IMG/VR virus record: IMGVR_UViG_3300024518_004186 | Location: 1 to 22,168 of that record | DNA: 22,168 nt | Source: a virus | Reading direction: 5' to 3' (one strand) | The notes under the pieces: generated by a model | Databases searched by the model: none | What the model saw: only the letters and a program-made list of their open reading frames with translations | What the model was told of the DNA's origin: nothing | Position numbers and translations under genes: made by a program | Part shown: piece by piece, positions 18,571-21,772 of the stretch | How positions within the stretch are numbered: the stretch's first letter is position 1 | Layout of the letters: every line of letters starts with the position of its first letter

Positions 18571-18735
18571 ATGGCTACCACCACAGTGAAAACCGCTATG
18601 CGGATTCCGGCGGATGTGATTACGGAAATCGAAAAGATGATGGCTCAGGACGGATTTGGCGCTGGTGACCGGACGAAATACATCGTTTCGATCCTGCGCA
18701 AGGCGATTGCTGCCCGGCAGGTGCCATCCGAGTAA
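18571..18735 (+). CDS. Ribbon-helix-helix DNA-binding protein (Arc/CopG/MetJ type)
   Basis: A 54-residue protein, about the size of the Arc repressor (53). 'VKTAMRIPADVITEIEKMM' is the usual RHH beginning: a beta strand with alternating polar residues, a Pro-Ala/Asp turn and helix A. 'GDRTKYIVSILRKAIAAR' is helix B. RHH proteins dimerise, insert the paired strand in the major groove and bind tandem short palindromes, often at their own promoters. It is the third gene of the operon that starts behind the TAGTACTA octamers and is closed by a terminator at 18779. It is therefore the best candidate in the window for the protein that reads the octamers. GAGAGG lies about eleven bases upstream. Confidence 0.85.
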   Translation: MATTTVKTAMRIPADVITEIEKMMAQDGFGAGDRTKYIVSILRKAIAARQVPSE

Positions 18736-18778
18736 ACGTCAAGCACTGATTGACACCACCCCCCTGTTTCAGTACCCT

Positions 18779-18814
18779 AACCTGATCGCGGATATCCCGT
18801 GGTCAGGTTTTTTT
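18779..18814 (+). terminator. Rho-independent terminator after the RHH gene
   Basis: AACCTGA (18779-18785) pairs with TCAGGTT (18803-18809), with an internal palindrome GGATATCC in the loop that strengthens the hairpin, followed by a T-run to 18814. It ends the first three-gene block. A promoter-like TTGACA-17-TACCCT (18750-18778) lies directly upstream and might read into the terminator. Confidence 0.88.
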
Positions 18815-18826
18815 ATGGGGATTGGC

Positions 18827-19378
18827 ATGGCAACGAACGGAAGTTGGGCAATTATGGAGTGCATGGGGTTCTGTGGGTCCTGCATGGATCACCACCTAGC
18901 GAAGCGCACAAGCCGTGGCTGGAAATGTGGCAAGTGCCATCAGGCATATCCCTACCAAATGGAGCCGATGGACTGCGCCACCTGTGGCCCGATATTGTTT
19001 GAATACCCGAACCCAGAGGCATCCGGTCGCGAGGGATGGACTTGCTCTGCCTGTAATGGGGATTCCGCGGGTGGTGGCCCAGGGTATTGCCGTGATTGCA
19101 ACGAAACGGGATACAAGATGGCTAACGGTCGAAAATACATCTGCCACTGCCCGGTAGGGCTACCGCTGATGCGCGCCAAAATTCAATCCGCCGAGAGGGA
19201 TTCGGTCAGGCCCGGCTACCTTGATTACCTCGTTGGCGAGAATAAGCGCCTGCAATCACAGGTGGACGAATTGTTACGCCGACTCAGTAGCCCGATAAAT
19301 GCATTGGCATCAGCGGAGCGGGCGGTTGAAATTGCGGAGATGACCCGTGACATGATAAAGGAATCAAAATGTGGATAA
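18827..19378 (+). CDS. Multi-zinc-finger protein with DnaJ-like CxxC repeats and coiled-coil tail
   Basis: A 183-residue protein with pairs of Cys: C16/C19, C34/C37, C50/C53, C73/C76, C88/C91 and C107/C109. The block 'WTCSACNGD ... GYCRDCNETGY' resembles the CxxCxGxG repeats of the DnaJ zinc domain; the others look like zinc ribbons. A heptad-like helix near 133-150 (YLVGENKRLQSQVDELLRRL) suggests dimerisation. The start is uncertain: ATGs at 18815, 18827 and 18857 are in frame. I use 18827 because GGGGA stands six bases before it. Its last codons overlap the methyltransferase start by eight bases. It might bind DNA or a partner protein; no activity is visible. Confidence 0.7.
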   Translation: MATNGSWAIMECMGFCGSCMDHHLAKRTSRGWKCGKCHQAYPYQMEPMDCATCGPILFEYPNPEASGREGWTCSACNGDSAGGGPGYCRDCNETGYKMANGRKYICHCPVGLPLMRAKIQSAERDSVRPGYLDYLVGENKRLQSQVDELLRRLSSPINALASAERAVEIAEMTRDMIKESKCG

Positions 19379-20484
19379 TCCCGAACAACTTGCCGACAAA
19401 AGACCCACGATCATATCGTTTTGCACCGGTTATGGTGGACTCGAGCAAGCCATCAAGCGAGTTTTTGGATCTTGTCGCGTCCTCGCTTATGTGGAGATCG
19501 AAGCCTTCGCCATCGCCAACTTGGTTGCGAAGATGGAAGCGGGAAAATTGGGTCCGGCACCTGTTCACACGGACGTGCATACCTTCCCAGGAAAAGCGTT
19601 TTCTGGACGAGTGGATTTCTTGCTCGGCGGGTATCCCTGCCAGCCTTTCAGCGCAGCGGGAAAGCGTCTTGGAGCAGATGACCCCCGACACCTCTGGCCC
19701 AGTATTGCCCGGGCAATTAGATCTATTCGGCCACGATTCTGTTTCTTCGAGAACGTCGAAGGACACGTTACCCTTGGGCTTAAAGACGTTATCAACGACC
19801 TGGGCGAAATGGGTTACAGCGTTGAGGCAGGATTGCATAGCGCGGCGGAAGTCGGCGCCCCGCACCGACGCAAGCGGATTTTCATCCTGGCCCACACCGT
19901 CGGGGATGGCGGGCGGACAGACGAGCCGGGGCGGCAAGCGGAAGAGCGAGCTTCTGCTGGGGGGCGCGGTGAAACTATGGCCCACAGCAGCAGCACGGGA
20001 TTGGAAGGACACTCCGGGGATGTCAACCGAGAGGGACGGCAACCCGACTGGCAGGATCGATCAGTTGCCGCGCGCTGTTTACAACGCTGGCCCAGCAGAC
20101 CCGGACAGCCCCAGTACGACTGGGAAGAGCCAAGGGTCGTGGCCGACACCCCGGACGATCACGGGCGGAGCGGAGTCAGCGAAGCGGAAGCAGGAACTGG
20201 GCCGGACGGAGTCGGGCGGGTCGGACCTGCAAGCGGCGGTTCGGGCCACGACCTGGCCGACTCCACGCGCGCAGGACGGGTCGGGGACGGGTCCCACGGA
20301 GTGCGAGATGACGGAAACGGGGTTCAAGGTGACCCGGAAGTCGGGGGAGAAATTCGGAGCGAAGCTGAAGGACGCAGCGGCACACAAGGTTGCCCTGGGG
20401 GGCAAATTAAACCCAAATTGGGTGGAGTCCCTGATGGGGGTCGAATTGGGGTGGACCCAATTGCCAATAGAGTGGACAGGTTGA
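19369..20484 (+). CDS. WPTP-repeat phage protein fully overlapping the methyltransferase gene
   Basis: A 371-residue frame that starts two bases before the methyltransferase start and lies almost entirely on top of it in another frame. It is not a random shadow in appearance. It opens MWIIPNNL and has 'SLMWRSKP' (39-46), 'TWLRRWKRENWVRHLF' (51-66), 'LDLFGHDSVSSRTSKDT' (117-133), repeats WPTP/WPTA at 174, 204, 258 and 296, 'ARDWKDTPGMST' (209-220), and 'LNPNWVESLMGVELGWT' (347-363). I recall phage proteins with this same order of blocks, often called methyltransferase-associated. The function is unknown. The same AAAGGA can serve this ATG (spacing six). It could yet be a false frame that mirrors methyltransferase repeats. 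Confidence 0.68.
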   Translation: MWIIPNNLPTKDPRSYRFAPVMVDSSKPSSEFLDLVASSLMWRSKPSPSPTWLRRWKRENWVRHLFTRTCIPSQEKRFLDEWISCSAGIPASLSAQRESVLEQMTPDTSGPVLPGQLDLFGHDSVSSRTSKDTLPLGLKTLSTTWAKWVTALRQDCIARRKSAPRTDASGFSSWPTPSGMAGGQTSRGGKRKSELLLGGAVKLWPTAAARDWKDTPGMSTERDGNPTGRIDQLPRAVYNAGPADPDSPSTTGKSQGSWPTPRTITGGAESAKRKQELGRTESGGSDLQAAVRATTWPTPRAQDGSGTGPTECEMTETGFKVTRKSGEKFGAKLKDAAAHKVALGGKLNPNWVESLMGVELGWTQLPIEWTG

Positions 20485-20567
20485 GGTTGCTGGGCAATGG
20501 GGTTGTCCCTGCCCAGGCTACGCGCGCGCTGGAAATTTTATACGGGAGAATGATCGATGGTCAGTGA
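19371..20567 (+). CDS. DNA (cytosine-5) methyltransferase
   Basis: A 398-residue C5-cytosine methyltransferase read from a GTG at 19371. Motif I is SFCTGYGGLEQA (16-27, SAM binding). Motif IV is GGYPCQPFSAAG (86-97) with catalytic Cys90. Motif VI is FENVEGH (126-132) and motif VIII GAPHRRKRIFILA (162-174). A long Gly/Asp/Arg/Glu-rich region (about 175-360) carries 'MAHS', 'VADT', 'LADS' repeats where the target-recognition domain belongs. The C-terminal LRLLGNGVVPAQATRA is motif X. The protein would protect phage DNA from host restriction. No restriction gene is nearby, so it is an orphan methylase. AAAGGA is eight bases before the GTG. Almost the whole gene is also open in a second, apparently meaningful frame. 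Confidence 0.95.
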   Translation: MDNPEQLADKRPTIISFCTGYGGLEQAIKRVFGSCRVLAYVEIEAFAIANLVAKMEAGKLGPAPVHTDVHTFPGKAFSGRVDFLLGGYPCQPFSAAGKRLGADDPRHLWPSIARAIRSIRPRFCFFENVEGHVTLGLKDVINDLGEMGYSVEAGLHSAAEVGAPHRRKRIFILAHTVGDGGRTDEPGRQAEERASAGGRGETMAHSSSTGLEGHSGDVNREGRQPDWQDRSVAARCLQRWPSRPGQPQYDWEEPRVVADTPDDHGRSGVSEAEAGTGPDGVGRVGPASGGSGHDLADSTRAGRVGDGSHGVRDDGNGVQGDPEVGGEIRSEAEGRSGTQGCPGGQIKPKLGGVPDGGRIGVDPIANRVDRLRLLGNGVVPAQATRALEILYGRMIDGQ

Positions 20568-20796
20568 GATAAAGACATTTGAGATGGCGCACCACGACGG
20601 CGAGACGGATACGGACGTGTTGTTGGAGTACACGGTAGACCCTGGCACCGACCGGGTGGACATCTTGTCGGTCAGCCATGTGTTGTCGCGCACCCCGATT
20701 TTGGACTTGGACTTGGTACGCCGGATGAAGTCAGACCCTGACGTTGAGGTGATGGCGCTCGAGGGGTATTACGACGGTGGATCGAGTGCGGGCTAA
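20557..20796 (+). CDS. Small acidic protein of unknown function
   Basis: A 79-residue acidic protein starting MVSEIKTFEMAHHDGETDTD, with GGGAG eight bases before its ATG. It overlaps the methyltransferase end by eleven bases and the radical SAM gene start by 20. It seems to have three or four strands and a short helix. No family is recognised. Confidence 0.6.
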   Translation: MVSEIKTFEMAHHDGETDTDVLLEYTVDPGTDRVDILSVSHVLSRTPILDLDLVRRMKSDPDVEVMALEGYYDGGSSAG

Positions 20797-21772
20797 CGTT
20801 GTGACTGTTGGTTCTAAAAACGAAAGTCTTGGGGCGAACAAGCTGGCGACATGGCTACGGTCAACCGGGTGGGACGTTGCCGAGTCTGTTGAAGTGTCTC
20901 CGATGTTCCACGATTTCGACCTAACCTGCTTCTCTGCCGTTTTTTCGTGGAAGTTGCCAGCCCTGGTGAAGATGGTTAATTCCATCAAGGCAAAAGGCGA
21001 GGTGTGGATCGGTGGCCCTGCCGTGAGCTTCAGCAGCAAGAATTGTAGGTATGTTGAGGATGCCACCGGTATCGCACCCACCACCGGGATAGATCACAGA
21101 TTTGAAAAGGCAGAGCATGATTCATGCATGAATTACTTTTCCCGTGGCTGTCCGGCGTACACCCCTGCGTGTGGGTTTTGTCCCGTGCCGAAGATAGAGG
21201 GCAGCACCTTCACGTTTTACCCGGATGCGCGCCCCACCAAGATGCTGTTGGATAACAATCTGTCGGCGCTGCCTAGCGAATATCAAGATCACATAATTGA
21301 CGCATACCGTAATTTCAGCGGCAAGGTAGATGCCAACAGTGGTTTTGAGCCGCATTCATTCAGCGAAGAGACGTTGGCCCGGTGGTCAACCTTTCCGCTT
21401 ATGTACTGGCGTTTCGGGTATGACGATCTGACCGAAAGGGAGCAGGCGCTTACAATGCTTGATCTTCTGTTGTCCAGCGGGGTGTCGGGCAGACGCATCC
21501 AGGTGTATACACTTATCGGGAATGAATCGGTTGCCGACAGTATAAGCAGATGCCGGGAAGTTATCCGTTTGGGGGCTGAACCGCGGCCACAACGATTGCG
21601 ACCGCTTGATTGGCTCGGTGGCGATCTGCCGTGCCGTCACGACTGGACAGAAAAAAACCTGATTGCAACCCAGAGGTACTTTGCATTGCCACAAATATGG
21701 AAAACAGTGGAGATGAAGGATTTTTATTATCAAAAGCGTTATCCGTTCAGGGACATGGGGGTGGCAGTATGA
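20777..21772 (+). CDS. Radical SAM superfamily protein
   Basis: A 331-residue protein with the Cys cluster GCPAYTPACGFC (C125, C132, C135; CX6CX2C) expected to hold a 4Fe-4S cluster that cleaves S-adenosylmethionine. The spacing differs from the classical CX3CX2C but is used in some subfamilies. The N-terminal 85 residues look like a Rossmann-type domain (ANVVTVGSKNESLGANKLATWLRSTGWDV; EVWIGGPAVS), similar to B12-binding-like domains of radical SAM enzymes, but without the cobalamin-binding His motif. Later strand blocks (LMYWRFGYDD; RIQVYTLIGN) fit a barrel. The substrate is unknown. It starts at a GTG with GAGGGG upstream. It stands two genes after a SAM-dependent DNA methyltransferase, so a DNA- or nucleotide-modifying role is possible. 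Confidence 0.8.
   Translation: MDRVRANVVTVGSKNESLGANKLATWLRSTGWDVAESVEVSPMFHDFDLTCFSAVFSWKLPALVKMVNSIKAKGEVWIGGPAVSFSSKNCRYVEDATGIAPTTGIDHRFEKAEHDSCMNYFSRGCPAYTPACGFCPVPKIEGSTFTFYPDARPTKMLLDNNLSALPSEYQDHIIDAYRNFSGKVDANSGFEPHSFSEETLARWSTFPLMYWRFGYDDLTEREQALTMLDLLLSSGVSGRRIQVYTLIGNESVADSISRCREVIRLGAEPRPQRLRPLDWLGGDLPCRHDWTEKNLIATQRYFALPQIWKTVEMKDFYYQKRYPFRDMGVAV

Follow-up and report, generated by a model that had tools for sequence, protein, structure and literature searches.

A 22,168-nucleotide stretch of viral DNA (the window, by which we mean the whole of the DNA analysed) contains what, judged from the sequence and its relatives, is a genuine pair of overlapping genes on one strand, in which 1,114 bases are double-coded for a C5-cytosine methyltransferase and, in its +1 frame, for the WPTP protein. 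Rather than being an unrelated second gene, the WPTP protein is probably, as its sequence relationships suggest, the other half of the same enzyme, namely the half with motif IX. We consider it likely that the two proteins form a widespread two-subunit C5-cytosine methyltransferase encoded in overlapping frames, whereby the interaction of the subunits and their activity are inferred and no translation data are available.

The window is a tailed-phage fragment in which a PHROGs scan found terminase, head-tail and tail genes and recognised no restriction enzyme among the 10 further ORFs. The features of the locus are collected in Table 1. A preliminary description of this DNA had reported two proteins on one strand in different frames, and both ORFs indeed exist, including the WPTP protein with its 371 residues as an ATG-initiated ORF. 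The end given there for the region, 20484, is correct for the WPTP stop, but the methyltransferase extends 83 bases further. The methyltransferase had also been called complete with all key motifs, which holds only in part. We located the C5 motifs I, IV, VI, VIII and X in this frame, while motif IX was not seen there (by eye only) and the match to Pfam PF00145 (E 2e-32, residues 13–176) stops at residue 176. The same protein matches PHROG 363 with E 7e-56, and the consensus of the alpha frame retains a WPxRPGxPQxxWExPRVV stretch, which may be a target-recognition domain (TRD). The blocks of the WPTP protein, which the preliminary description had likened to phage proteins, were traced by database search to PHROG 1008 ("DNA methyltransferase"; E 1e-24). 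The WPTP protein gave no match in Pfam, NCBIfam or PADLOC at E up to 1, and its alignment profile gave none against PDB sequences at E up to 1. Its four WPT elements (residues 174, 204, 258 and 296) lie exactly atop the AHT, AHS, ADT and ADS of the methyltransferase, which carry identical residue numbers, so that the reported superposition of the two sets of repeats is right, as is the local G+C of about 75 percent (0.75 at 20221–20280). AlphaFold gave no usable fold for the WPTP protein alone (38-sequence alignment, mean pLDDT 48.9, pTM 0.20); such a poor model could be expected of a chain that depends on a partner, and equally of a chain that does not fold.

Table 1. Positions of the two overlapping reading frames and of their landmarks in the window.
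Feature	Positions	Strand	Remarks
Shine-Dalgarno-like AAGGA	19358-19362	+	6 nt 5' of the ATG; direct reading
Overlapping starts ATG (WPTP) and GTG (methyltransferase), written ATGTG	19369-19373	+	direct reading
TAA stop of the upstream ORF 18656-19378	19376-19378	+	directly past both starts
WPTP protein (proposed beta subunit)	19369-20484	+	+1 frame, ATG start, 371 aa; PHROG 1008, stop avoidance, wobble constraint
C5-cytosine methyltransferase (alpha frame)	19371-20567	+	GTG start, 398 aa; PF00145, PHROG 363
Make-up of the alpha frame			motifs I-VIII, then a hydrophilic ADT/AHS-rich stretch, then motif X
Motifs I-VIII region of the methyltransferase	19407-19898	+	constraint on both frames
Four WPT elements, WPTP frame	19888-20262 (19888, 19978, 20140, 20254)	+	each atop AHT/AHS/ADT/ADS of the methyltransferase frame
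Motif IX-like block LNPNWVESLMGVELGWT, WPTP frame	20407-20457	+	profile alignment to one-frame relatives, probability 95.9, E 6e-9
Motif X (LLGNGVVPAQA), methyltransferase frame	20487-20519	+	3' of the WPTP stop

One sign that the second frame is used is the scarcity of stop codons in it. Searching IMG/VR with the WPTP protein furnished 80 loci, 78 of which contain an overlapping match to the window methyltransferase when only the window proteins serve as queries; L072 and L078 show a methyltransferase match only with a wider query set. Since such a search favours loci with an open WPTP frame, we performed a second search with the methyltransferase. None of the 29 viral loci newly obtained in this way has a stop in the WPTP frame more than 54 codons ahead of the methyltransferase stop, and their third frame holds 10–33 stops. 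These 29 loci, which were read from the match start, of which 3 reach the contig end and several are near-copies (e.g., L108–L110), are our only unbiased set.

Because stops are in every gene rarer in the +1 than in the +2 frame, a suitable null model has to retain both the protein and its codon usage. For this we shuffled synonymous codons within each gene, using 50 sequences clustered at 80% identity, the window included, with one cut contig (L001) and two duplicates (L081 and L111) left out before clustering. Over motifs I–VIII, the WPTP frame contains 4 stops compared to 194.7 expected (n = 50), with 49 of the 50 sequences free of stops; all 4 occur in a Paenibacillus phage locus (L118) whose WPTP ORF begins later. 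The C half gave 6 stops (L002, L118 and L119) versus 87.2 expected (n = 50), which brings the total to 10 stops in 3 of the 50 sequences. In the loci found with the WPTP protein and in 39 other relatives, the zero-stop counts are fixed by how the ORFs were constructed, and only the expected values are informative there. In phage C75C1, with a G+C content of 48%, the WPTP ORF contains no internal stop and the third frame contains 35. The same shuffling applied to 29 ordinary C5 methyltransferases from bacterial genomes predicted 442.0 stops in the +1 frame, and 447 were found. This control was picked from 54 loci, of which 33 were kept (12 with a WPTP match, 4 gene repeats, 2 without a match to the methyltransferase set and 3 short or partial ones were taken out); of these, 2 could not be recovered, and another 2 among the remaining 31 proved to be WPTP-type and were excluded. 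Some control genes come from genomes that also bear a WPTP-type gene.

In this register, the wobble positions of the methyltransferase are the second positions of the WPTP codons. We analyzed the identity at fourfold sites in sequence pairs less than 50% identical and obtained, for the methyltransferase, 0.464 over motifs I–VIII (0.284 expected), 0.498 over the repeats (0.282 expected) and 0.736 in the C-terminus within the overlap (0.293 expected). Past the WPTP stop, in a region in which the protein sequence of motif X remains conserved, the value is 0.321 compared to 0.281 expected. The reverse test on the wobble positions of the WPTP frame gave 0.644 in the N half (0.277 expected), 0.394 in the repeats (0.280 expected) and 0.316 in the motif IX block (0.278 expected). 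The ordinary methyltransferases show 0.285 versus 0.276 for pairs below 50% identity and 0.339 versus 0.299 for pairs of 50–80%. The pairs are not independent of each other, and we base our conclusions on how large the effects are, on the fall at the WPTP stop and on this control; the test with its control took the place of a formal dN/dS analysis of the overlapping frames in close pairs. From the two-way results we can conclude that the catalytic half depends on both frames and the remainder chiefly on the WPTP frame. As far as substitution patterns can tell, both frames are under purifying selection across the overlap, though the constraint on the methyltransferase frame is only weak along the WPTP repeats and the motif IX block.

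Across the 50 aligned sequences, the start site reads NTGTG in 37, has the two starts 5 nt apart in 6 and shows neither arrangement in 7, where the WPTP start in each relative is the start codon nearest to the position aligned with the WPTP start in the window. In 23 of the 37 NTGTG sequences, the methyltransferase has no possible start other than the GTG once past the in-frame stop that precedes it. A crude pattern detected a Shine-Dalgarno-like site in 28 of the 50. That it is found in just 28, and that 7 sequences have starts neither 2 nor 5 nt apart, are points against the two-subunit reading. The position of the upstream stop makes a translational coupling of that ORF to the two starts possible, which remains an inference.

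Relatives with a different distribution of the motifs over the frames show what the WPTP protein may contribute. Gordonia phage Upyo encodes motifs I–VIII in one frame, which ends at codon 182, and uses the other for the PTP repeats, the motif IX block and motif X, while Mycobacterium phage Cornucopia gp70 holds motifs I–VIII, PTP units, the IX block and motif X in a single chain. Among the 32 loci retrieved with gp70, 23 combine PTP units with the IX block in the methyltransferase frame, one (L240) has the IX block without PTP units, one (L234) has PTP units and motif X with no recognised IX block, and 7 possess a short first frame without PTP units, IX block or X. Our pattern for motif X, with 11 matches in these 32 loci, was too strict, as the consensus reads GNGVCPQQA. 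The WPTP profile aligns to the one-frame chain over repeats and IX block with a probability of 95.2 (E 2.7e-8), and the IX–X block of the one-frame chain aligns in turn to motifs IX–X of ordinary C5 methyltransferases with a probability of 93.9 (E 1.6e-7). Directly compared with the ordinary enzymes, the WPTP motif IX block gives only a weak alignment (probability 11.9, E 0.0025), so that the link runs via the one-frame relatives. By way of these relatives, the profile alignments identify the C-terminus of the WPTP protein as the carrier of motif IX. The predicted structure of a one-frame relative has a confident core (pTM 0.65) that superimposes on M.HhaI with Z 21.4 over 243 residues (rmsd 4.0, 25% identity), while its PTP region (about residues 191–350) lies mostly below a pLDDT of 60. 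The one-frame sequence profile reaches M.HhaI over motifs I–VIII only, and the motif IX link consequently rests on the profile alignments of the IX block.

In 25 one-frame loci the +1 frame over motifs I–VIII contains 88 stops compared to 87.4 expected, and none of these loci is stop-free. The count takes in 25 of the 32 Cornucopia-type loci; the 7 with the short first frame were excluded. The second frame is thus no longer held open where motif IX sits in the methyltransferase chain. Gordonia phage JKSyngboy is an exception in that the IX block stands in the methyltransferase frame, yet the +1 frame is stop-free over motifs I–VIII. Because of this exception, and because the one-frame loci represent little more than one lineage, we regard the two-subunit reading as supported but not proven. 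When loci were sorted with regular expressions by the frame of motif IX, 83 had it in the +1 frame, with stops in the scanned stretch in 23 and none in 60; 23 loci were without a recognisable motif VIII and 19 without an IX block in either frame. The figure for motif IX in frame 0, 23 of 23 with stops, includes a first-codon stop of JKSyngboy and is replaced by the 25-locus count. Within the one-frame lineage the PTP array itself is split between frames, which the simple two-subunit model does not explain. In some other lineages (L009, L014, L023, L034/L035 and L114), motif X is found in the WPTP frame.

We propose that ribosomes would be loaded at the one Shine-Dalgarno-like site and start either at the ATG, giving the WPTP protein, or 2 bases further on at the GTG, giving the methyltransferase; this choice of start, and two polypeptides arising by alternative initiation, are inferred. 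The alpha subunit would supply the catalytic and AdoMet-binding motifs I–VIII together with motif X. The beta subunit, i.e., the WPTP protein, would supply motif IX and, going by its place in the one-frame relatives, also the stretch from motif VIII to motif IX, in which target-recognition domains sit. Along the WPTP repeats and the IX block, alpha would be mostly a tolerant linker that is kept open to reach motif X. Association of the subunits and a methylation activity are deduced, not observed. The enzyme would probably protect the phage's DNA from host restriction by modifying it, a biological role that is likewise inferred. Target recognition by beta, itself an inference, is made uncertain by the WPxRPGxPQxxWExPRVV stretch of alpha and by M.EcoHK31I, for which the available portion of PMC3404938 places the predicted TRD in the larger subunit.

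The rival that survives best, although we think it unlikely, is that the WPTP protein is translated but fulfils a function apart from methylation, for example an anti-restriction or regulatory one, and merely shares the DNA. Its N half (about residues 1–170) has neither a Pfam match nor, to our knowledge, a counterpart in C5 methyltransferases, yet is constrained in its own right, and JKSyngboy keeps its +1 frame open over motifs I–VIII despite an IX block in the other frame. Such an independent protein would leave unexplained that in the Cornucopia lineage the IX block and PTP units lie within the methyltransferase chain while the +1 openness is lost (88 versus 87.4 stops). The answer to the question posed in the preliminary description, whether WPTP proteins occur without an overlapping methyltransferase, also speaks against it: among 133 loci we found no WPTP locus without a methyltransferase, and 132 share the common +1 register, the only exception being L072, in which the methyltransferase frame is broken. 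Here one has to consider that 104 of the 133 loci were obtained with WPTP queries and are biased to that frame, and that the queries for the set include many of those loci.

Two separate polypeptides would not be needed if programmed ribosomal frameshifting past motif VIII joined the two frames into one chain. The position of motif IX, in the +1 frame between VIII and X, would fit such a joint, as would the lineages listed above with motif X in the WPTP frame. In the window, however, motif X is again encoded in the first frame, so that two shifts would be required (slippery sites were not searched), and a joined chain does not account for the WPTP protein's own conserved start, for the stop avoidance (4 versus 194.7) or for the wobble conservation over motifs I–VIII. 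Because conservation of the WPTP frame begins at its own start and extends through the catalytic half, we hold a programmed frameshift to be quite improbable. Even less credit is due to the idea that the conserved wobble positions serve a binding site or the structure of the RNA or DNA and no protein at all: wobble constraint alone reveals no cause, and RNA structure is untested, but the constraint extends over about 1.1 kb, tracks the WPTP register, ends at the WPTP stop and is accompanied by stop avoidance and a conserved start. Finally, the view that the WPTP frame does not code and is merely a shadow of the methyltransferase, held open by composition or codon bias, can be dismissed with hardly any reservation, since despite the high local G+C and the trivially lower number of stops in +1 than in +2 frames, 194.7 stops are predicted by shuffles in which the protein and its codon usage are preserved and only 4 exist, the same shuffles match ordinary C5 methyltransferases (447 versus 442.0) and the one-frame lineage (88 versus 87.4), C75C1 keeps the frame open at 48% G+C with 35 stops in the third frame, and the wobble constraint falls at the WPTP stop.

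The preliminary description had left two possibilities, a long double-coded gene or a database family built on a shadow frame. Stop avoidance, wobble constraint that ends at the WPTP stop, paired starts and the negative control decide for the first, and we reject the second, though database records are inconsistent as to which frame is annotated. It had named synonymous constraint in only one frame and stops in the WPTP frame of homologues as refuting evidence. Constraint in one frame only is not what we see, with the methyltransferase frame weak over repeats and IX block; stops are absent from 47 of the 50 sequences and present in L002, L118, L119 and in the one-frame lineage.

The overlapping pair looks old and common. 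A scan of GTDB genomes gave 24 loci across varied phyla, all with the overlap in the identical register, and the bacterial carriers, whose prophage status is unchecked, comprise Bradyrhizobium, Rhodobacteraceae, Desulfovibrio, Planctomycetota, Acidobacteria and others. In the class of one carrier (G003), 5 of 142 genomes, G003 included, show PHROG 1008 matches. A prophage WPTP protein matches 210 of 50,697 phage records, the overlap not being confirmed for each. Reading 22 named records in all frames, we found that 19, among them N15 (gene 58), epsilon15, BcepC6B and C75C1, have a WPTP frame that stays open over more than 230 codons, in +1 relative to the methyltransferase; the three exceptions are Upyo (split), JKSyngboy (mixed) and Cornucopia (one frame). 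The annotations differ from record to record, and as a rule just one of the two frames is entered. Those of N15, epsilon15 and BcepC6B give a single frame, two sister Synechococcus phages have opposite frames annotated at one place, and the Xanthomonas phages PhiXhv-18 and PhiXhv-5 have both. Paenibacillus phage Redbud carries the label "g50 internal gene", Tunturiibacter phage Tunturi_1 has the WPTP frame alone, annotated as methyltransferase, and Pseudomonas phage Riah has neither frame annotated. We found no paper describing this overlap in the literature searched, with most subscription papers outside the scope of the search; the accessible part of PMC3711429, on conserved frame transitions, names no C5 DNA methyltransferase.

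Many phage genes listed as "DNA cytosine methyltransferase" may thereby be annotated, cloned and assayed as half an enzyme, and genes assayed in this way would look inactive. Kilobase-long same-strand overlaps with both products conserved are rare in DNA phages and bacteria, and the overlapping, split and one-frame arrangements offer a natural series for the study of constraint shared by two frames. One may further speculate, tentatively and with considerable doubt, that the WPTP units, one to several in variable number, are target-recognition modules placed on a separate subunit in the other frame, and that the catalytic domain of this nearly universal enzyme was overprinted once, long ago, with its own partner, after which the pair spread through phages of many bacterial phyla. 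If this is true, duplication of units in beta could gain or lose methylation specificities, while alpha need only stay open.

In M.EcoHK31I (YGGCCR), the smaller ORF lies inside the larger one, in another frame. The available portion of PMC3404938 describes this enzyme as two polypeptides, the larger with motifs I–VIII, X and a predicted TRD and the smaller with motif IX only, and the window resembles it in having motifs I–VIII and X on one polypeptide and IX on a second. Excerpts of PMC3439449 call M.EcoHK31I naturally split, and the enzyme also appears in those of PMC6456624. By analogy with this division of motifs, the pair may work like M.EcoHK31I, homology to its smaller polypeptide being untested. 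The window differs in that the WPTP ORF spans nearly the entire methyltransferase ORF and starts 2 nt ahead of it, in that the WPTP protein bears an N half over motifs I–VIII and one to several WPTP units, and in that none of the 10 further window ORFs was recognised as a restriction enzyme. M.AquI is likewise a C5 methyltransferase on two polypeptides with motifs I–VIII on one, but its smaller subunit, according to the same part of PMC3404938, holds both IX and X, whereas X is in the alpha frame of the window; the lineages with motif X in the WPTP frame are nearer to M.AquI. PHROG 1008, together with PHROGs 31772 and 10223, is another close known counterpart, and 1008 matches the second frame in the window and in the relatives scanned, while its entry gives no hint that members sit within another coding frame. 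The Cornucopia type (gp70) shares motifs I–VIII, the PTP units, the motif IX block and X with our pair and differs by having them in a single frame, with +1 stops over motifs I–VIII at the chance rate. The motif division itself is known from M.EcoHK31I, as the accessible text of PMC3404938 has it; that the WPTP protein is probably the second half of the enzyme had been missed by the preliminary description.

In the lineage fetched with gp70 of Mycobacterium phage Cornucopia (L215–L236), the array of WPTP-type repeats (PTP units) is split across two frames, the methyltransferase frame (frame 0) and the WPTP frame (+1). In most of these loci the +1 frame holds the first PTP units, while the later units lie in frame 0 together with the block of methyltransferase motif IX. 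This divided array is unexplained; it may be a remnant of some indel by which the frames became fused. Seven further loci fetched with gp70 (L237–L239, L241, L243, L245 and L246) have a first frame of just 100–236 codons that contains neither PTP units nor motifs IX or X. They look like split or disrupted forms.

Two features near the overlapping pair in the window were also noted. The upstream ORF terminates within the start of the pair and had no PHROG match in the PHROGs scan of the window ORFs. A radical SAM domain protein sits a short way downstream of the methyltransferase.

Neighbours of the overlapping pair in the window
Feature	Position	PHROG match	Translation
240-aa ORF	18656-19378		several CxxC pairs
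Radical SAM domain protein	20777-21772	PHROG 9298, E 1.6e-12	

Irregular copies of the pair were also seen: the methyltransferase frame is broken in L072 (register 2, an offset other than the usual +1), and the WPTP frame is shortened in L125 and L058. Pseudomonas phage Riah (L249) carries the entire methyltransferase/WPTP locus with both frames unannotated. Finally, Gordonia phages Upyo (L114) and JKSyngboy (L119) carry this same gene in naturally rearranged forms. In Upyo the gene is split, the first frame stopping past motif VIII; JKSyngboy has motifs IX and X in frame 0 and the PTP units in +1.
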